A stretch of 48,455 nucleotides of DNA, from contig CANQOI010000009.1 of assembly GCA_947625435.1 (NCBI GenBank), positions 1 to 48,455 on the forward strand, written 5' to 3'. Shown one piece after another: positions 22,825 to 32,229 of the stretch (within the stretch, counting starts at the first letter, position 1; each line of letters opens with the position of its first letter). The position numbers and the translations under genes were made by a program. This stretch comes from an uncultured Clostridia bacterium (GTDB lineage: Bacteria > Bacillota > Clostridia > UBA1212 > UBA1255). The notes under the pieces are model-generated. The model was not told the origin of the DNA, ran no database searches, and saw only the letters and a list, made by a program, of their open reading frames with translations.

Positions 22825-22853
22825 TTGACGGAAAACGGATTTGTTGCTATACT
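22825..22853 (+). promoter_or_regulatory. Sigma-A promoter of the dockerin glycosidase gene
   Basis: TTGACG (22825-22830), 17 bases, then TATACT (22848-22853) with an extended TGC. The transcript start would fall near 22860, which excludes any start codon upstream of it and supports ATG 22901. Confidence 0.85.
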
Positions 22854-22900
22854 CAGGCTACTTATTTTTATGGGTTTTACCTGAAGGGAGTACGATCGAT

Positions 22901-25051
22901 ATGAGAAGAATGTCAGATTTCGGAAACGGTGTGCGCTTTATGAGTAGATTGTTCGCACTGTTTCTTATAGCTTCTCTGTGCATGGGCTTTGATATTTTCG
23001 CAGCGGGAGATACTGCGGAGGTCAGGCCGGACTCGTGGGCCGCAGTGGACGGTCTCGGAAGAACGGTAAGCACATATGACGATGTGGGAGAGACGCGGGA
23101 CGGAAAATATGTAGGTATATTTTACTGGACGTGGCATTACGATTTTGCAAGGAGCACGCGCGCAAGGAACGTGACCGAGATAATAAACGAGCATCCGGAG
23201 GCGAGGAACGATTACAATCACTCCGCGTGGGGCAGAGGCACCGGCGGACAGTACTTCTTCTGGGACAAACCGATATTCGACTATTACATCAACACAGACG
23301 AATATGTGGTAAGAGAGCAGGCAGAGCTCCTGGCCGATGCCGGCGTAGATGTGATATTCTTTGACTGCACGAACGGAACATTCGTGTGGGAGCCCGCATA
23401 CGAAACGGTATTCAAAGTATTCGAGGAAGCAAGAGCGCAGGGCGTGAAGACTCCGCAGATAGCGTTCATGATGAATTTCGGCGGAGCGCAGGACACGGCC
23501 ACACAGCTCGAATACGTATACAAGGATATATATAAACCGGGAAGATATGAGGATCTGTGGTTTAAATGGGACGGAAAGCCCCTGGTGCTCGCAAGAAAGA
23601 AGAGCACTACATACGCGGGAGATATGTCTACGGAGCTTCGCAAATTCTTTACATTCAGATACTGCAACCCGAGCTATTATACGCAGGATCAGCCCATATC
23701 GCAGGGTCAGTGGGGATGGTGCTCCGTATATCCTCAGACTAAGTACGGAGTGAGAGACGACGGCTCGGTGGAACAGATGACCGTGAGCGTGGCGCAGAAT
23801 GCCAGCGATAACGGCGGACCTATAGCAATGAACGACTACAGGGGCGGAGTATACGGAAGAGGTTATGCAAAAGGCGATTATTCATATACGTATACATATC
23901 AGGGACAGGAAATAAAGGTAGACAAGAATACGCAGGACGCGTATCTTTACGGGCTCAACTTCCAGCAGCAGTGGGATTACGCTATGTCGGTCGACCCGGA
24001 TTTCATATTCATAACCGGATGGAACGAATGGGTGGCTATACGCCAGCAGTCATGGCAGGGCACGACAAACGCATTTGCGGATCAGTACAATGCCGAATTC
24101 AGCCGTGACGTGGAGCCGTCAGACGGCGTGCTCAAGGACTTTTTCTACTATCAGATGGTAGACAATATACGTAAATTCAAGGGCGTCGGCAAGAACCCGT
24201 ATTCCGGAACGGATGCCGGAGTATATAAGACTATAGACATACACAGCAGCAGCGATCAGTGGGCCGATGTTGAGCTCCGGTACGACCATTATCAGAATAA
24301 CACATGGGACAGAGATTCAAACGGCTGGCTCGGCATGAAGCGCATGACGTATTCCACGATGAGGAATGACTTTGTATCCTTCAAGGTGGCATACGACGAT
24401 GAATATGTCTACTTCCTCGCAGAAACGGCGGACAACATAACGAGCTCTTCGGGAGTATCGTGGATGCACCTTTATATCGATACGGACCCCACGGGCATTT
24501 CACCGAACTGGGAGGGCTTTGAGTATGTTGTGAACAGGATACCGCTCACGACACCCGAATGGGCAGGATACTGTAAGGTGGACAGCTCAGCCGGAGGATG
24601 GAAGTTCAGAGAGGTGGGACGTGCGGAATATACCGTAAACGGAAAACGCATGCAGATCGCGATACCCAGAGCGATGTTGGGACTTGAGGATGTAAACGGC
24701 ACCATGCCGGCATTCAACTTTAAGTGGTCGGATAACACGGTCGCTCCGGGCGCCACATCTGATTCCGGGAACATACTTGACTTCTACAAGTACGGAGACG
24801 TCGCTCCGGGAGGAAGATTTATGTTCACATTTGATCCTGCAGAATTCGGCACCAAGGGAGACGTGAACGCGGACGGCAGCATAAATGTTGCGGACGCAAG
24901 CCTTGTCATGCAGATACTGGCCGAATGGGATATGCCCGAAGGAACTGTCGTATCCAATGCGGATATAAACGGAAACGGCAAAGTGGACGTGCAGGACGCG
25001 ACGCTCATACTGCAGCATATCGCAGGCTGGTTCGACGAATTCCCCGTGTAA
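22901..25051 (+). CDS. Secreted glycosidase-like protein with CBM9-like module and type I dockerin
   Basis: A 716-residue exported protein. A signal peptide (about 1-35) ends near AAG. A catalytic-type barrel (about 40-435) has YVGIFYWTWH, FFDCTNG (about 153-159) and GWNEW (373-377, with Glu376 a candidate catalytic residue). These resemble the GH99/WbsX-like barrels, but exact family and substrate are not certain. A CBM9-like module (about 442-650, with IDTDPTG and WEGFEYVVNR) should bind glycan ends. A type I dockerin (about 652-716) has two Ca-binding loops, DVNADGSINVAD and DINGNGKVDVQD, for cohesin docking. The start at 22901 has GAAGGGAG 10 bases upstream and lies after the promoter. 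A full paralog lies at 30120-32192. Confidence 0.85.
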   Translation: MRRMSDFGNGVRFMSRLFALFLIASLCMGFDIFAAGDTAEVRPDSWAAVDGLGRTVSTYDDVGETRDGKYVGIFYWTWHYDFARSTRARNVTEIINEHPEARNDYNHSAWGRGTGGQYFFWDKPIFDYYINTDEYVVREQAELLADAGVDVIFFDCTNGTFVWEPAYETVFKVFEEARAQGVKTPQIAFMMNFGGAQDTATQLEYVYKDIYKPGRYEDLWFKWDGKPLVLARKKSTTYAGDMSTELRKFFTFRYCNPSYYTQDQPISQGQWGWCSVYPQTKYGVRDDGSVEQMTVSVAQNASDNGGPIAMNDYRGGVYGRGYAKGDYSYTYTYQGQEIKVDKNTQDAYLYGLNFQQQWDYAMSVDPDFIFITGWNEWVAIRQQSWQGTTNAFADQYNAEFSRDVEPSDGVLKDFFYYQMVDNIRKFKGVGKNPYSGTDAGVYKTIDIHSSSDQWADVELRYDHYQNNTWDRDSNGWLGMKRMTYSTMRNDFVSFKVAYDDEYVYFLAETADNITSSSGVSWMHLYIDTDPTGISPNWEGFEYVVNRIPLTTPEWAGYCKVDSSAGGWKFREVGRAEYTVNGKRMQIAIPRAMLGLEDVNGTMPAFNFKWSDNTVAPGATSDSGNILDFYKYGDVAPGGRFMFTFDPAEFGTKGDVNADGSINVADASLVMQILAEWDMPEGTVVSNADINGNGKVDVQDATLILQHIAGWFDEFPV

Positions 25052-26648
25052 AACAGCTTGACTGTCATACATTAAGTGTATAATATTGTACTGTCATAGA
25101 CCAAGCATACAGAGGTATCGATATCACATGAAAAAGATCATAAGCATACTTATCGCGTTTTCCGTTTTTACGGCAATGTGCTCCGGAATGTTCGCATATG
25201 CGGCGGACGACGGAGAGCCCTTGCCGCATGCTCATATTGAAGACATAACGGCGCCTGCCTTTAATGTCAAAGCCACAGGTGTGGTGTCTCTCCCGGGCGG
25301 ATATAAATACTATTCGGCAGTATTCACAAACCCGATATATGAAGCCGAAGCTTCAGAGCATGTGCCTGAGCCGGGCCTGCCCGTGCCTGCCGCATACTAT
25401 GCCGCAGCCGGATCCTCAGAAGAGTACACAGAAGGGATCGAAGCCGCTGCAGACATAATGAGAGAGCACATGAAAAACAGGATAAGTACGTTTACAATAA
25501 ACATGAGATCGTCTGTGTACCCGGATCCCGGTGAGCTTACGAGGATCGCGTCGGAAGCTTTCAGGCATACTGGAAATCCCAAAGAGGGAGATTATATCCG
25601 TTTTCAGCTTGACAACTGGTCCGCGCGGAATACATTTCACTATGACGGCGTGTATTATTATTCAAATATAACATTCAACGTTAACTATTTCACTGACGCT
25701 TCACAGGAGTCGGAGGTTGACAGTATCGTCGGGACGCTCGTTAAAGAGTTCTCAGCCCAAAAGACCGATCATGACAGGATAGCCGCCGCATATGAATACA
25801 TATGCGACCATGTGGCATACGACTATGGCAATCTTTACAACGACAACTATATGCTTAAATATACCGCTTACGCTGCCTTGAAGAAGGGCACGTCCGTATG
25901 TCAGGGCTATTCTGTCCTACTCTACAGACTTGCTCTGGAGCTCGGCATTGATTCCAGAATAATAACGGGGATCGGAAACAACGGAAATCATGCGTGGAAT
26001 ATAATAAAATTAAAGGGTAAATATTATAACGCAGACTCAACATGGGACGAAACCAACAAGCCGTCGTATTATAGATATTTTCTTAAATGCGATGCAAATT
26101 TTACGGATCATCAAAGGGGAGAAGCTTATGACAGCAGTGAATTCCGCAAGGCTTACCCCATGGCGGACAGGGATTATGAGAATGTGTCCTGCGGCGGCGA
26201 CCACAGCCCGGCGGCTCCCGTAGAAGAACATACAGTCAGAGCAACATGCACGACTGACGGCTCATACGAGGAGGTCATATACTGCTCTGTATGCGGCGAA
26301 GAGCTTCAGAGGAAGAAAGTGACCGTAAGTGCGACAGGTCATGTATGGAACGATTGGGTGATCGTAGAACCCGCCACAGAAGCATCGGACGGACTTAAGG
26401 AACGCGAATGCTCCGTATGCGGCACAAAAGAGACGCAGATGATACCTATGATCGGAAAGAGCGCCATAGGGGACGTGAACGCCGACGGCAGCATAAATGT
26501 TGCGGACGCGACCCTTATCATGCAGATATTGGCCGAATGGGATATGCCGGAAGGAATTGTCGTGCCCAACGCCGATCTGAACGGGAACGGCAAGACGGAC
26601 GTGCAGGACGCGACGCTCATACTGCAGCATATCGCAGGCTGGTTCGAC
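24857..26648 (+). repeat. Pair of near-identical dockerin-coding segments
   Basis: The dockerin-coding stretches 24857-25036 and 26469-26648 are nearly identical. Their last 52 bases (24985-25036 and 26597-26648) match exactly. The two host genes are otherwise unrelated, so the module was copied or homogenised recently. Confidence 0.85.
25058..25086 (+). promoter_or_regulatory. Candidate promoter of the transglutaminase-dockerin gene
   Basis: TTGACT (25058-25063), 17 bases, then TAATAT (25081-25086); an overlapping TATAAT at 25079 has 15-base spacing. A 9-base direct repeat ACTGTCATA flanks it (25061 and 25090). Confidence 0.6.
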
Positions 26649-26651
26649 TGA
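25128..26651 (+). CDS. Secreted transglutaminase-like protein with dockerin
   Basis: A 507-residue exported protein. The signal peptide (1-24, ending FAYA) is clear. A transglutaminase-like cysteine-protease fold has its full triad: Cys258 in SVCQGYS, His288 in NHAWN and Asp303 in YNADSTW. Two short CxxCG repeats follow (YCSVCGEE and ECSVCGTK), a cell-surface repeat type common in gut Firmicutes. A type I dockerin (about 447-507) is almost identical to that of the upstream glycosidase. The enzyme may cleave or cross-link proteins or peptidoglycan peptides on a cellulosome-like complex (inference). ATG 25128 gives a proper signal peptide, with AGAGG 12 bases upstream. Confidence 0.88.
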   Translation: MKKIISILIAFSVFTAMCSGMFAYAADDGEPLPHAHIEDITAPAFNVKATGVVSLPGGYKYYSAVFTNPIYEAEASEHVPEPGLPVPAAYYAAAGSSEEYTEGIEAAADIMREHMKNRISTFTINMRSSVYPDPGELTRIASEAFRHTGNPKEGDYIRFQLDNWSARNTFHYDGVYYYSNITFNVNYFTDASQESEVDSIVGTLVKEFSAQKTDHDRIAAAYEYICDHVAYDYGNLYNDNYMLKYTAYAALKKGTSVCQGYSVLLYRLALELGIDSRIITGIGNNGNHAWNIIKLKGKYYNADSTWDETNKPSYYRYFLKCDANFTDHQRGEAYDSSEFRKAYPMADRDYENVSCGGDHSPAAPVEEHTVRATCTTDGSYEEVIYCSVCGEELQRKKVTVSATGHVWNDWVIVEPATEASDGLKERECSVCGTKETQMIPMIGKSAIGDVNADGSINVADATLIMQILAEWDMPEGIVVPNADLNGNGKTDVQDATLILQHIAGWFD

Positions 26652-26693
26652 TTTTACATGTAATATAATCTAAAGATTCAAGGAGGACTTTAT

Positions 26694-28397
26694 ATGATGA
26701 ATGATATACCATACGGAATAAGACGGGAAGAAATATACAAAGATACCGAACCCGACAACAGAGTGAGGAGATTCATGACTCCCCGCCGTGTAGTATGGAA
26801 AACCGACGGAGACAGGGCGAGGGTGTCCGGAGAAGATGCTCTTCTCAAGCCGCACATCAAACAGATACATTTTAACGTGCCCGAAACGTGCCTGCTCGAG
26901 AGCAAGGGCGAGAGCGCGGGCATTTTACTCGACTTCGGGGTGGAATTTCACGGATATGTGAAGCTTTACATACATTCGGTGACGCCTCAGCGCGTGCGTC
27001 TGAGAGTGCGTTTCGGAGAATCGGCTTCCGAGGCTATGGCAGAACTGGGAGGAGATAAAAATGCCACGAACGACCACATAAACAGAGATCAGGTCATAGA
27101 CGTGGGCTTTCTCAGCATGCCGGAGATAGGGCCGAGCGGCTTCAGGTTCGTGAGGATAGATCTGCTCGACAAGGACGCTTCGATAACATTTCAGGCGGTA
27201 CAGGGAATATTTGTATACAGGGATCTCGAATATAAGGGCTCGTTTGAATCGAACGACACGCTCTTGAATGAGATATGGAATACGGCCGCATACACGGTGC
27301 ATCTGAATATGCAGGAATACGTTTGGGACGGTATAAAGAGGGACAGACTCGTGTGGATAGGCGACATACACCCCGAGACATCTACGATACAGGCGGTCTT
27401 CGGATACGATAAAAGCGTTGAGGACAGCCTTGACCTCGCAAGAAACGAATCTCCGATACCGAGCATGATGTGCGGAATGTCATCGTATTCGCTTTCATGG
27501 ATAATAGTGCATTACGGATGGTATCTGCAGAACGGAAACAGAAGATATCTTGAAGAGCAAAAGGAATACCTCACCGCGCTCCTCAGATATTTTGCCGGCC
27601 GCATAAATGACGACGGCTCCGAAAATATGCCCGAGAACAGGTTCATAGACTGGCCTTCGAATGACAAGCCCGACGTGATACATGCGGGACTTCAGGGATA
27701 TATGAGAATGGCTTTTACGGCGGGAGAATATCTGTGCAGAGAGCTGGGCGACAGCGAGACCGCCGACATATGCGCAGGTGCCGCGGCAAAGCTGCTGAGA
27801 CACGTGCCCGATCACAAGGGGAGCAAGCAGGCGGCGGCGCTCCTCGCGCTTTCCGGGATAGAGGACGCGCGTAAAATGTCCGATGAAGTCATAAAGAAGG
27901 ACGGCGGCAGGGGCTTCTCCACATTCATGGGATATTATATGCTGCGCGCTCTCGGAGAAGCGGATGAAGTGGCGTCGGCGATAGATATAATAAAGGAATA
28001 CTGGGGCGCCATGCTTTCAAGGGGCGCGACCACATTCTGGGAGGATTTCAACCTCGACTGGCTCGAGGGCTCGGGACGTATAGACGAAATAACGCCGGAA
28101 GGCATGATTGACATACACGGCGACCACGGCGCATACTGTTATATCGGTTTCAGACACAGCCTGTGCCACGGCTGGGCGTCCGGACCGGCGGCGTTCCTGT
28201 CAGAATATGTGCTGGGAATAAGACCTGTGGCCCCGGGATGCGCTAAAGTACGCTTTGAGCCGCACCTCGGAGGTCTCGAATGGGTCAAAGGCACATATCC
28301 CACTCCCCACGGAATAATAAAGATCGAGCTCAGAAAAAAGCCGGACGGAGGCACAGAGAGTAAAATAGAACTGCCGGAAGGGGTTACAATTGCTTAA
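26694..28397 (+). CDS. GH78-family (alpha-L-rhamnosidase-like) glycosidase
   Basis: A 567-residue cytoplasmic protein without signal peptide. The order is that of bacterial rhamnosidases: a beta-sandwich region (LLDFGVEFHGYVKL, VRFGESASEAM), the six-hairpin barrel with RDRLVWIGDIHPE near residues 215-230, and the C-terminal beta-domain (HGWASGPAAFLSEYVLGI). It lacks the extra N-terminal domains of full-length rhamnosidases of about 900 residues. It would release rhamnose or a related sugar from imported oligosaccharides; the exact sugar is not certain. ATG 26694 is preceded by a near-perfect AAGGAGG. The end overlaps the VanZ gene by 8 bases. Confidence 0.87.
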   Translation: MMNDIPYGIRREEIYKDTEPDNRVRRFMTPRRVVWKTDGDRARVSGEDALLKPHIKQIHFNVPETCLLESKGESAGILLDFGVEFHGYVKLYIHSVTPQRVRLRVRFGESASEAMAELGGDKNATNDHINRDQVIDVGFLSMPEIGPSGFRFVRIDLLDKDASITFQAVQGIFVYRDLEYKGSFESNDTLLNEIWNTAAYTVHLNMQEYVWDGIKRDRLVWIGDIHPETSTIQAVFGYDKSVEDSLDLARNESPIPSMMCGMSSYSLSWIIVHYGWYLQNGNRRYLEEQKEYLTALLRYFAGRINDDGSENMPENRFIDWPSNDKPDVIHAGLQGYMRMAFTAGEYLCRELGDSETADICAGAAAKLLRHVPDHKGSKQAAALLALSGIEDARKMSDEVIKKDGGRGFSTFMGYYMLRALGEADEVASAIDIIKEYWGAMLSRGATTFWEDFNLDWLEGSGRIDEITPEGMIDIHGDHGAYCYIGFRHSLCHGWASGPAAFLSEYVLGIRPVAPGCAKVRFEPHLGGLEWVKGTYPTPHGIIKIELRKKPDGGTESKIELPEGVTIA

Positions 28398-28896
28398 AGA
28401 TCTGACAGGAAAGGAAAAAATCAAATATGTGATCCCCCGCGCCGTATGCGTGACTGCCGTGCTGGTGCTCATGTGCTTCATTTTCGGCAATTCAACGGAT
28501 AATGCGGAGGAATCTTCGGACAAAAGCTCTTTTGTAACGGAAATATTGCAAAAGGCGGCGGATGTCGTGTCTCCGGGCACAACGGTGAATGAGAATTCAG
28601 TCCGCAAATGTGCCCATTTCATTGAATTTACCGCATTGGGAGCGCTCGCCATGCTGACGCTGAGGGTTTTTACGGAAAAATATATGACGCATATAACCGC
28701 ACCTCTGTTCTATGTGCTCGCGGTCGCTGTCAGCGATGAATTCATTCAGATAAACAGCTCCGGAAGGGCGTCGGATGTCAGAGATGTGCTGATAGACTTC
28801 TCCGGCGCTCTTACGGGTACGTTATTGTGCCTGCTGTTCATCGTGCTTGTCGGATATATCGGCAAAAAGAGAAAAAAGAGTAATGCCTATGCGTGA
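28390..28896 (+). CDS. VanZ-like membrane protein
   Basis: A 168-residue VanZ-family protein. It has an N-terminal membrane helix (about 13-32), the family's KCAHFIEFTALGAL segment (about 76-89) and DEFIQ...GRASDVRDVLIDFSG before the last helix. VanZ gives low-level teicoplanin resistance in enterococci; most homologues have no known role. The start is a TTG at 28390, supported by GGAAGGGG 7 bases upstream and an 8-base overlap with the GH78 gene. It overlaps the AI-2E gene by 8 bases, so the three are translated as a chain. Confidence 0.88.
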   Translation: MLKDLTGKEKIKYVIPRAVCVTAVLVLMCFIFGNSTDNAEESSDKSSFVTEILQKAADVVSPGTTVNENSVRKCAHFIEFTALGALAMLTLRVFTEKYMTHITAPLFYVLAVAVSDEFIQINSSGRASDVRDVLIDFSGALTGTLLCLLFIVLVGYIGKKRKKSNAYA

Positions 28897-30133
28897 CGAA
28901 CATAAGACCGGTAAGATAAAAACAAACGTTGAGGAAAAAAAGCACGGCGTAAAGCTGTTCAGATCCCGCTTTACGCCGGCGAAGCTGTATCTGTATATAC
29001 TCGCTGTGCTCCTTACCGTTAAGATCGTATTTGACATACACGGCTTCGGAGATTTTGTGTCCAAAGCCGTATCATTCGTGATATCACTGTTCGGATACCT
29101 CATAATAGGCGTCGTGATAGCATATATACTCAACACATATACGCTTTTCTGGGAAAACAAAGTATTAAAAAAAGTCAATAAGAAGAGATTAAAGCGCGGG
29201 ATAAGCATAGCCATAGCTTACGTAACGCTCATAGCGGTCATAGCTCTCCTCATTTTTGCGCTTGTCCCTACCGTTATAGATACGGTAAAGTCATTTTCGT
29301 CCGATATACCGCGGGCATTTCAGAAAATACTCGAATTTTACAATGATCTGGTAGAGAGGGACAGATTCAATCTGTCCGAGGAAGTGCGGAATACGATAAG
29401 GGACAACATAAGCGGGATGCAGGATACAGTCATGGCGTGGATCAATGCCGAGAACATAACGAATCTCGCCACGAGACTCTTCTCGACGACGATAAGCGGT
29501 ATATTCAATGTTCTGATGGGGCTTATGGTGTCCGTATATATGCTCATAGAAAAAGACAAGACCGTAAATATGTTCAAGAGAGTAAATTATGCTCTTTTCT
29601 CAAAGACGCATGCGGATAACATACAGTGGGGAGCCTCGCAGTGCAACAGGATACTGAAACAATATTTTGCGGGCAAGCTCATACAGGCGCTCATAATACT
29701 CGTACTGTCATATGTTCTTTTCCTGATAGCGGGACTGAAATATGCGGTGATACTGGCAGTTGTGATGGCCGTTATGAACATGATACCGTACATAGGGCCG
29801 TGGATTGGAGGAGCGGCAGTTGTTTTCATGTCTCTTCCGCAGGGAGTATTTTACATATGCGCCGCGCTCATATGCATACTCATAGTTCAGGCTGCCGACA
29901 ACCTGTTCATTTCACCTAAAATAGTGGGAGGACGTATGGGGATCAGTCCGCTGCTCGTGCTCGCCGGTCTGTGTATAGGGGGAGGTCTCTTCGGCCTGCC
30001 GGGAATGATAATGGGCGATGTGCTCGCCGCTGTTTTTAAGACACTTTTTTATGACCGTTATATCGGAAACAGATTGAAACGTAAAATGGAAAACGGAGTT
30101 TTGACAAAGGAGTTTGATAATGATGAAAATTAA
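28889..30133 (+). CDS. AI-2E family transporter (UPF0118)
   Basis: A 414-residue polytopic membrane protein of the AI-2E/TqsA-like exporter family. A charged N-terminus is followed by helices near 30-50, 60-85 and 105-130, a long periplasmic-type amphipathic segment (about 140-200), and the conserved C-terminal block with MNMIPYIGPWIGG and LPGMIMGD. Substrates in the family are varied (AI-2 export, Na+/H+ exchange); none can be assigned here. ATG 28889 overlaps the VanZ stop as ATGCGTGA and has AAAGAG 8 bases upstream; ATG 28883 and TTG 28847 are alternatives. It overlaps the next gene by 14 bases. Confidence 0.87.
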   Translation: MRDEHKTGKIKTNVEEKKHGVKLFRSRFTPAKLYLYILAVLLTVKIVFDIHGFGDFVSKAVSFVISLFGYLIIGVVIAYILNTYTLFWENKVLKKVNKKRLKRGISIAIAYVTLIAVIALLIFALVPTVIDTVKSFSSDIPRAFQKILEFYNDLVERDRFNLSEEVRNTIRDNISGMQDTVMAWINAENITNLATRLFSTTISGIFNVLMGLMVSVYMLIEKDKTVNMFKRVNYALFSKTHADNIQWGASQCNRILKQYFAGKLIQALIILVLSYVLFLIAGLKYAVILAVVMAVMNMIPYIGPWIGGAAVVFMSLPQGVFYICAALICILIVQAADNLFISPKIVGGRMGISPLLVLAGLCIGGGLFGLPGMIMGDVLAAVFKTLFYDRYIGNRLKRKMENGVLTKEFDNDEN

Positions 30134-32192
30134 AGTGTGCGCATTGTTTCTGTGTGCCGTATTGATCTTAGGCCCGGTGATGCCCGCATACGCGCAGGAG
30201 GGGTCCGGGCAGGCCGGGCAGGCCGATCAGACGCAGGCGGAGATAAAGCCCGATACGTGGGCGGCGGTAGACGGACTCGGAAGGACCGTGAACGGTTACG
30301 GCGATGTGGGAGATAAACGCGACGGTAAATATGTGGGTATATTTTACTGGACGTGGCACTATGAATTCGCAAAATCCACAAAGGCCATGAACGTGACCGA
30401 GATCATAAACGAGCACCCCGAGGCGAGGAATGACGTCGACAATGAGGCATGGGGTAAAGGAACTCTCGGGAAATATTTCTTCTGGGACAAGCCCATATTC
30501 AATTATTACATAAATACGGATGAGTACGTGATAAGAGAACATGCCGAGCTTTTGGCGGACGCCGGAGTGGATGTCATATTTTTCGACTGCACAAACGGAA
30601 CATATCTGTGGGAGGACGCGTACAGGACGGTCTATAAGGTATTCGAACAGGCGCGGGCCGAGGGCGTGAATACCCCGAAGATAAGCTTCATAATGAATTT
30701 CGGAGGCGGCAAAGAGACCGCGACGCAGGTAAGAGAGGTATACAACGATATATTTAAAGACGGAAAATATCAGGATCTCTGGTTCATGTGGGAGGGCAAG
30801 CCGCTCATACTCGCGTATCCCGACTGCATATCGGAATACGACCTGCAGGGGCCTGAAATACTCGACTGCTTCACATTCAGATACTGCCATCCCAGCTATT
30901 ATACGGATGATACTAAAATAGAAGACAGGACATGGGGCTGGTGCTCCGTGTACCCTCAGACAAAGTACGGCATACGCGAGGACGGCAGCGTCGAACAGAT
31001 GACGGTGAACGTAGCTCAGAATGCCAGTGACAACGGCGGGCCGCTTGCCATGAACGACTACCGCGGAGGCGTTTACGGAAGAGGCTACGCAAAAGGCGAT
31101 TACTCGTATTCATACGAATATCAGGGAAATCAGGTTACGATAAACAAGGACACAGAAAACGCTTATCTTTACGGACTCAATTTCCAGCAGCAGTGGGATT
31201 ACGCTCTTTCCGTGGACCCCGATTTCATATTCATAACGGGATGGAATGAATGGGTGGCCATAAGACAGAAGGAGTGGGGCGGTTCCCCTAACGGATTCGC
31301 CGATCAGTATAACGCGGAGTTCAGCCGCGACGTAGAACCGTCGGACGGCATACTGAAGGATTATTTTTACTACCAGATGGTGAGCAATATACGCAAATTC
31401 AAAGGCGTTACCGCTCCCGACACGGCGGACAAAAACAGCGGTGCGTATAAGACGATAGACATAAACAGCACCGACGATCAGTGGGCGGACGTAAATCTTT
31501 CATACGCACATTATACGAACAACACGTGGGAAAGAAATTCCGCGAGCTGGAGAGGCATAAAGAAATATCAATATTCGACCATGAGGAACGATCTGGAGCT
31601 CTTCAAGGTGGCATATGACAACGAAAACGTATACTTCCTGGCACAGACGGCAGGCGACATAACGGATCCGTCAGGCCCGTCGTGGATGCACCTTTACATA
31701 GACACCGATCCCACGGGCAGCTCGCCCAACTGGGAGGGCTTTGAATACATAGTCAACCGCGTTTCTCCCTCGGGCGGCGAATGCTCCGTTGAAAGGTCGG
31801 ACGGAGGATGGAATTTCATCGAAGCCGGCAAAGGTAAAATATCCGTGAGCGGAAACAGGCTGCAGCTCTCGATACCGAGAGAGACGCTCGGACTTACGGA
31901 TAAGGACGGTAAAATACCCGCTTTCAATTTCAAGTGGACGGATAATACCATAGAGCCCGACACAACGGAGGATACGGGAAATATACTTGATTTCTACAAA
32001 TACGGAGACGCGGCTCCCGGAGGAAGATTCATGTTCTCGTTCAATACAGAATACGTGGCGCCCCCGGATTCAGGATCCGGATTATTGGGACTGCCCTGGT
32101 ACATATGGACCTGCATAGGCGTCGCTGCAGCCGCAGTGACAGCGGCAGTCGTGACAGTTGCGGTGCGCAGGGGCAAAAAAAGTGTTGCATGA
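30120..32192 (+). CDS. Secreted glycosidase-like protein with CBM9-like module and C-terminal membrane anchor
   Basis: A 690-residue paralog of the 22901-25051 protein, alike from the mature N-terminus (TWAAVDGLGRTV) to the end of the CBM9-like module (FYKYGDAAPGGRFMF). Signal peptide 1-24 ends AYA. The barrel motifs FFDCTNG and GWNEW (374-378, Glu377) are kept, as is the IDTDPTG of the CBM9-like part. In place of a dockerin it ends with a single membrane helix (LPWYIWTCIG...) and a basic tail RRGKKS. No LPxTG motif is seen, so anchoring is by the helix itself. ATG 30120 has AAAGGAG 7 bases upstream and overlaps the AI-2E stop. It would hold the same activity at the cell surface. Confidence 0.85.
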   Translation: MMKIKVCALFLCAVLILGPVMPAYAQEGSGQAGQADQTQAEIKPDTWAAVDGLGRTVNGYGDVGDKRDGKYVGIFYWTWHYEFAKSTKAMNVTEIINEHPEARNDVDNEAWGKGTLGKYFFWDKPIFNYYINTDEYVIREHAELLADAGVDVIFFDCTNGTYLWEDAYRTVYKVFEQARAEGVNTPKISFIMNFGGGKETATQVREVYNDIFKDGKYQDLWFMWEGKPLILAYPDCISEYDLQGPEILDCFTFRYCHPSYYTDDTKIEDRTWGWCSVYPQTKYGIREDGSVEQMTVNVAQNASDNGGPLAMNDYRGGVYGRGYAKGDYSYSYEYQGNQVTINKDTENAYLYGLNFQQQWDYALSVDPDFIFITGWNEWVAIRQKEWGGSPNGFADQYNAEFSRDVEPSDGILKDYFYYQMVSNIRKFKGVTAPDTADKNSGAYKTIDINSTDDQWADVNLSYAHYTNNTWERNSASWRGIKKYQYSTMRNDLELFKVAYDNENVYFLAQTAGDITDPSGPSWMHLYIDTDPTGSSPNWEGFEYIVNRVSPSGGECSVERSDGGWNFIEAGKGKISVSGNRLQLSIPRETLGLTDKDGKIPAFNFKWTDNTIEPDTTEDTGNILDFYKYGDAAPGGRFMFSFNTEYVAPPDSGSGLLGLPWYIWTCIGVAAAAVTAAVVTVAVRRGKKSVA

Positions 32193-32214
32193 CCGTGAAA
32201 TTGTGTGGTATAAT
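32185..32214 (+). promoter_or_regulatory. Promoter of rpmE
   Basis: TTGCAT (32185-32190), 18 bases, then a perfect TATAAT (32209-32214) preceded by TGG as an extended -10. The -10 lies in the loop of a hairpin that also looks like the terminator of the upstream gene. Confidence 0.75.
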
Positions 32215-32229
32215 CCACAATGCTTTTTT
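32200..32229 (+). terminator. Hairpin with T-run overlapping the rpmE promoter
   Basis: ATTG..TGG and CCACAAT arms enclose TATAAT, followed by GC and six T residues (32224-32229). It would end transcription from the anchored glycosidase gene. Confidence 0.5.

Follow-up and report, generated by a model that had tools for sequence, protein, structure and literature searches.

We examined a 48,455-nt stretch of DNA from an uncultured Clostridia bacterium (contig CANQOI010000009.1 of assembly GCA_947625435.1, positions 1 to 48,455 of the forward strand; hereafter the window), in which four genes on one strand are chained by short stop-start overlaps. The assembly comprises 86 contigs with a total of 2.03 Mb, and the window lies on the contig labelled C9. 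The four genes encode a putative alpha-L-rhamnosidase of glycoside hydrolase family 78 (GH78), a VanZ-family membrane protein, a permease of the AI-2E family, and a glycosidase-like protein with a predicted barrel of the GH99/GH71 type. The chain is real, mostly ordinary, and a recent mosaic. A sequence-only reading of the window had placed it at positions 26694-30133; the chain stands, but its end does not, since the fourth gene extends to 32192 and two dockerin genes precede the first. The four genes form the 3' portion of a six-gene same-strand run, 22841-32192 (Table 1). The gaps from the two upstream dockerin genes to their next genes are short (34 and 42 nt, by longest frames), a consensus scan of the + strand gives no terminator-like site in either, and a terminator-like hairpin lies at 32204. 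Therefore, the unit to consider is six genes, which are probably carried on one transcript.

Table 1. Features of the six-gene run and its flanks (positions in the window).
Feature	Position	Strand	Basis
Promoter-like site, 5' of the six-gene run	22825..22853	+	Consensus scan match 10/12 only, no proof of function
Secreted GH99/GH71-fold glycosidase-like protein, C-terminal dockerin, paralogue of last gene	22841..25051	+	71% identity; Dockerin_1 40.9 bits
Transglutaminase-like protein with dockerin	25086..26651	+	Transglut_core 47.2 bits; Dockerin_1 37.5 bits
GH78 rhamnosidase-type enzyme (predicted), ATG start, acidic positions D212, D217, D224, E450	26694..28397	+	Open frame, Pfam, alignment, model
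Shine-Dalgarno-like site of VanZ, GGAAGGGG, within GH78 codons Pro-Glu-Gly-Val	28376..28383	+	Sequence reading
GH78/VanZ overlap, 8 nt	28390..28397	+	Open frames
VanZ-family membrane protein, TTG start	28390..28896	+	PF04892
VanZ/AI-2E overlap, 14 nt (8 nt with start 28889)	28883..28896	+	Open frames
AI-2E family (PF01594) permease, ATG start 28883 or 28889	28883..30133	+	Pfam
Shine-Dalgarno-like site of last gene, AAAGGAG	30106..30112	+	Sequence reading
AI-2E/last-gene overlap, 14 nt (11 nt with start 30123)	30120..30133	+	Open frames
GH99/GH71-fold glycosidase-like protein, CBM9-like domain, C-terminal membrane helix, ATG start	30120..32192	+	Profiles, model
Terminator-like hairpin, 3' of last gene	32204..32219	+	Consensus scan only, no proof of function

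The first gene of the chain encodes a predicted rhamnosidase-type enzyme, a one-piece protein of 567 aa in which no signal peptide was seen. It matches PF17389 with 62 bits against a cut-off of 24.5, and the (alpha/alpha)6 rhamnosidase domain is present. Its nearest solved chain is 3cih (E 3.5e-44), and the top 11 Foldseek matches of its structure model (predicted local distance difference test, pLDDT, 90.2) in the PDB are all rhamnosidases. By an alignment counted by hand, residues D567, E572, D579 and E841 of RhaB (2okx), which we take to be catalytic, correspond to D212, D217, D224 and E450, and these four positions are invariant in 24/24 GH78 orthologues. The close named relatives are Clostridia assemblies (L052-L054), one of them from water buffalo rectum.

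The last protein gave no Pfam match at E 0.01. Glyco_hydro_99 was matched by 3/13 members of its family (best E 2.6e-5) and PF03659 (GH71) weakly by one of the 13 (E 0.028), and a profile built from the family finds a GH99 endo-alpha-mannosidase (E 0.0018). The model of the protein is middling (pLDDT 66.6) and only the barrel (residues about 40-430) was relied on; it aligns with GH99 4v28_A (Z 16.4, root-mean-square deviation 4.4, 264 aligned) and with GH71 9fnf_A (Z 13.5, deviation 3.9, 233 aligned). The glutamate of a WNEW motif is shared with GH99. The position of the second GH99 glutamate (E of NEWHE), presumably also catalytic, is an alanine invariant in 13/13 relatives, and because of this replacement GH99 membership was rejected. 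A CBM9 match points to an additional CBM9-like domain, and by inspection the C-terminus consists of a membrane helix and a basic tail. With 12 matches, the genome has about 10 members of this family. The family is also strongly expanded in the relatives G019, G021 and G072 (45 to 49 first-look candidates, 14 of them scored in each genome), and two pattern matches pointed to viral carriers of the last gene, neither of which was confirmed.

The two middle proteins are, by profile, plain members of their families. VanZ scores 74 bits against PF04892 (cut-off 30.1) and is the sole VanZ match in the genome; no van cluster was seen around it, and the one match in a sequence search for solved relatives was a P-gp chain (E 0.41). 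The AI-2E protein scores 185.6 bits against PF01594 (cut-off 34.3) and falls below the cut-offs of the YtvI and CxpE models, and no solved relative was found by sequence at E 0.1. The UPF0118 Na+/H+ antiporter group was considered for it and rejected. A published account of that group gives the consensus IRRTVEPKVMG..IGLS for motif D and DFIPI.GSI for motif C (PMC7221264), whereas the window protein has, by eye, ADNLFISPKIVGGRMGIS and NMIPYIGPW.

For comparison among genomes, G000 denotes the genome of the window, g1 its genus (G000-G004) and g4 a sister genus, all within a family of 16 genomes. The overlaps of 8 to 14 bases noted in the sequence-only reading are confirmed by the open frames and the sequence (8 nt; 8 or 14 nt; 14 or 11 nt). 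The TTG start of VanZ is backed by a TTG at the same place, with an upstream Shine-Dalgarno (SD) site, in G002 and G004. In G000, G002 and G004 this start precedes the GH78 end by 8 to 11 nt, and the GH78 codons for Pro-Glu-Gly-Val form its SD-like site. Overlaps are not rare in the window, where mechanical start choice gives 6/26 overlapping same-strand junctions, two of them in the chain; this procedure shifts VanZ to an inner GTG, and with the TTG start the count becomes 7/26. What exceeds chance is the persistence of tight junctions in the genus. In G000, G003, G002 and G004, respectively, the GH78/VanZ distances are -8, -4, -11 and -11 nt and the VanZ/AI-2E distances -8 (or -14), +6, -17 and -17 nt, so the junctions are tight but vary in length.

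Such spacing does not carry the earlier claim that the four products are made in fixed ratio, because separate SD-like sites precede VanZ and the last gene; the overlaps would permit coupled translation but do not set the ratios. As reported in PMC10666635, overlaps favour termination-reinitiation and subunits of complexes are enriched (30.4% vs 6.8% in E. coli), and 69.6% of E. coli gene pairs spaced -8 to +10 nt do not code for a common complex. Against a coupling range of about -8 to +10 nt, the first junction stands at -8 and the second at -8 or -14, and the third (-14 or -11) is slightly outside. Furthermore, GAAGGAGT occurs at the VanZ-SD position of GH78 in f5 (L044, L045), where no gene on the same strand lies close behind. 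Therefore, a start signal can pre-exist VanZ and be recruited when a gene lands behind it, and overlaps could arise easily because the upstream coding sequence already contained such signals.

Conservation of the four-gene order, the check named in the sequence-only reading, was surveyed in 78 genomes, 16 of them in the family, with contig ends hiding neighbours in several. The GH78 orthologue is present in 15/16 family genomes (all except G013). The full order occurs in only two of the 16, G000 and G003, and a conserved four-gene unit is rejected by this comparison. The shorter order GH78-VanZ-AI-2E is found in 4/5 genus members, with no last gene behind it in G002 and G004, and VanZ adjoins GH78 in 10 of the 15 genomes of the family that carry this GH78. 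The fifth genus member, G001, has 58 nt between GH78 and AI-2E; this gap ends in a string resembling the 3' end of the G002/G004 vanZ, plus the AI-2E SD, and vanZ was therefore most likely deleted there. With or without GH78, the AI-2E gene adjoins a tig-clpP-clpX-uppP-tsaD block in g1, g2 and g3; it lies upstream of tig in two of these (g1, g3) and follows tsaD in the third (g2). In 4/15 family genomes (G000, G003, G007 and G010) GH78 has a last-gene homologue within about 6 kb, which we judged to be near chance given the many copies per genome and did not use as evidence. Two further loci in the family may be mentioned: a serpin gene (PF00079, 300 bits; L034 7245-8513, + strand) just 5' of the four-gene chain in G003, and in G007 (L037 4692-10970, - strand) a same-strand series of a last-gene homologue, a second, larger GH78-type gene and the GH78 orthologue, in which no gap separates the GH78-type frames.

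Outside the family we used 80 named GH78 loci, the best 80 of the 571 confirmed matches listed, in many of which the flanks end at contig ends. By profile, VanZ or AI-2E lies beside GH78 in 0/76 of the other named loci, a set that includes L056, apparently G006 of the same family. A GH106 cluster is near GH78 in 11 loci, and the two of its members that were checked belong to GH106. ABC sugar permeases are near GH78 in Bacillota loci (two of L062 checked), and L114 contains RhaA-RhaT-RhaD (RhaT was checked also in L116; the remainder were assigned by cluster only). Relatives of the last gene occur within about 6 kb of GH78 in 11/76 loci from Bacteroidota, Planctomycetota and Verrucomicrobiota (L059, L078, L079, L080, L081, L091, which is weak, L095, L096, L100, L112 and L129). 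Any last-gene homologue was found in 21/40 genomes, and chance placement predicts 0.14 loci compared with the 11 observed, in an estimate that covers a subset of 40/76 loci, selected so that all 11 positives are in it, uses gene counts merged by eye and ignores shared ancestry. Loci of this kind are rich in glycosidase genes in any case, and the co-location therefore argues for a shared glycan theme, not for a physical partnership. The glycan is most likely rhamnose-containing.

A glycan role is thus upheld for GH78 and the glycosidase-like gene, whose relatives are co-located in other phyla with rhamnose genes. It is not upheld for VanZ and AI-2E, to which the sequence-only reading had extended it from the linkage: neither accompanies GH78 in the other loci, AI-2E lies by the tig block with or without GH78, and vanZ is missing from the chain in G001.

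We therefore lean, with confidence a little above even, towards the reading that the chain makes up the 3' part of a run of six genes that grew by stepwise insertion, with a glycan-breakdown core and VanZ and AI-2E as passengers. The two GH99/GH71-fold enzymes, one dockerin-bearing and one helix-anchored, would be secreted and cut a glycan outside the cell, and the resulting oligosaccharides would enter through a transporter. GH78 would then strip terminal alpha-L-rhamnose inside the cell by acid/base chemistry at D212, D217, D224 and E450. As for the order of assembly, AI-2E may already have adjoined the tig-clpP-clpX-uppP-tsaD block when, in the genus, a GH78-VanZ pair arrived on its upstream side; between AI-2E and tig, a copy of the glycosidase gene may have been inserted in the G000/G003 branch. 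Most likely, VanZ and AI-2E act in the envelope, were carried along and are not required for the glycan pathway. The substrate and cellular locations given here are, like the shared transcript, what we infer from gene content and protein features.

Several observations weigh against this reading. Within the genus the junctions stay tight, and both the GH78-VanZ and the AI-2E/glycosidase neighbourhoods are found again in g4, which would be unexpected for passengers. Moreover, RhaA (L-rhamnose isomerase, PF06134) is absent from G000 and G002 but present in 25/30 relatives, and RhaD is over the cut-off in 0/15 genomes, the sub-cut-off matches of its model in 13/15 falling mostly on a frame (about 430 aa) that resembles an aldolase; the use of free rhamnose is therefore unproved. 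Within the genus, G000 retains GH78 yet has no PF06134 match, and three of its four genus mates have one.

The recurrence in g4 also opens the possibility, tentative at best, that AI-2E and a membrane-anchored GH99/GH71-fold enzyme are a working pair, combining for example hydrolysis at the membrane with movement of the product or an ion, and that GH78 and VanZ joined this pair later. In all five g4 genomes where the site is visible (G008, G010, G011, G014 and G015), the end of a last-gene homologue and the start of AI-2E are -4 to +6 nt apart, with the order inverted relative to the window (enzyme, then AI-2E); the G012 contig ends at the site, and G013 has no AI-2E match. The g4 enzyme carries an N-terminal lipobox in 4/5, as identified by what we take to be the lipobox motif, and the N-terminus of the G010 enzyme is not visible far enough. 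The enzyme copies of the window and G003 end in a membrane helix. The tight joining of an anchored hydrolase to AI-2E in two genera, in opposite orders and with different apparent anchors, would fit such a pair. However, six g11 genomes with at least 14 enzyme matches each have no AI-2E match, and the linked enzymes of the window and g4 are only 31-35% identical within a family of many copies, so the pairing may be chance. Directly before the lipobox enzyme, g4 also encodes a conserved protein of about 336 aa without a Pfam match (L136 7254-8264 and L140 3519-4472, both - strand), whose gene overlaps that of the enzyme by 4 nt in L136.

A less probable account, and one we consider unlikely, is that GH78 and VanZ form a long-standing functional pair of the family, in which VanZ alters the envelope so that a substrate or product passes or is tolerated. 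The two are adjacent in 4/5 g1 genomes and in all six g4 genomes with this GH78 (-4 to +30 nt in g4; -11 to +30 nt overall), the G014 VanZ match being in two pieces in different frames, and the hypothesis that the linked VanZ arose only once is not rejected (p-AU 0.234). VanZ proteins lower the binding of lipoglycopeptides to cells (PMC7146870), which would suit an effect on the envelope. On the trees, however, g1 and g4 VanZ fall apart, with weak support; the first tree kept 27/30 intended rows (G003b, G010b and G041 lost) and the second 17/18 (G010b lost), two being fragments. In g2 and g3 GH78 has no VanZ alongside: the VanZ of G009 is on another contig, and G005, G006 and G007 have GH78 and no VanZ match. 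The pair is also absent from the 76 other GH78 loci.

Finally, turnover of the cell's own envelope glycan, which the sequence-only reading had also raised and which might fit an envelope protein family such as VanZ and an AI-2E gene adjoining uppP in g1-g3, is very improbable, as GH78 relatives are located in rhamnose-glycan use loci and an own-envelope rhamnose polymer is weakened by the lack of rmlD over the cut-off in 15/15 genomes, G000 included, compared with its presence in 9/14 control genomes.

Stepwise growth of the run around a glycan-breakdown core thus remains our preferred account. A neat overlapping chain can be a young mosaic, and since its parts differ in history, overlap alone is poor evidence of function. 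An uncharacterised GH99/GH71-fold family travels with a GH78 enzyme across phyla. The pairing of AI-2E with an anchored hydrolase is the part of the chain worth a survey, as it raises the testable idea that AI-2E proteins and surface glycan enzymes are linked; if true, some AI-2E proteins would gain a glycan-linked role.

Some features of the rest of the run may be added. The GH99/GH71-fold paralogues (23012-24838 and 30237-32050, 71% identical) flank GH78-VanZ-AI-2E, with a dockerin in one and a membrane helix in the other. The dockerin ends of the two neighbouring upstream genes (24849-25051 and 26461-26663) share 87% DNA identity along 203 nt, suggestive of a recent duplication or conversion. 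The genome has two cohesin matches over the cut-off, which are possible partners for the dockerins.

Compared with known systems, the window GH78 resembles the alpha-L-rhamnosidases 3cih, RhaB (2okx) and Rha-2 (8iwd) in Pfam domains, fold and four acidic positions; it differs as a one-piece protein without a signal peptide, with Asp (D217) at the place of RhaB Glu572 and an activity that is predicted only. VanZ agrees with its family profile (PF04892) and differs by its position behind a GH78 gene, with no van cluster seen around it. Similarly, the AI-2E protein fits PF01594 (AI-2E/UPF0118), albeit below the YtvI and CxpE cut-offs and without the antiporter signature. The last protein has a predicted barrel that aligns with those of GH99 endo-alpha-mannosidases and GH71 alpha-1,3-glucanases, and it has the WNEW glutamate; it differs in having no Pfam family over the cut-off, an alanine for the second GH99 glutamate and the extra CBM9-like domain. 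At the level of the locus, the window run has no GH106, Sus or Rha genes and includes VanZ and AI-2E, whereas the rhamnose-glycan utilisation loci of Bacteroidota often contain GH106 or Rha genes; what the two have in common is a GH78 orthologue together with a relative of the last gene.

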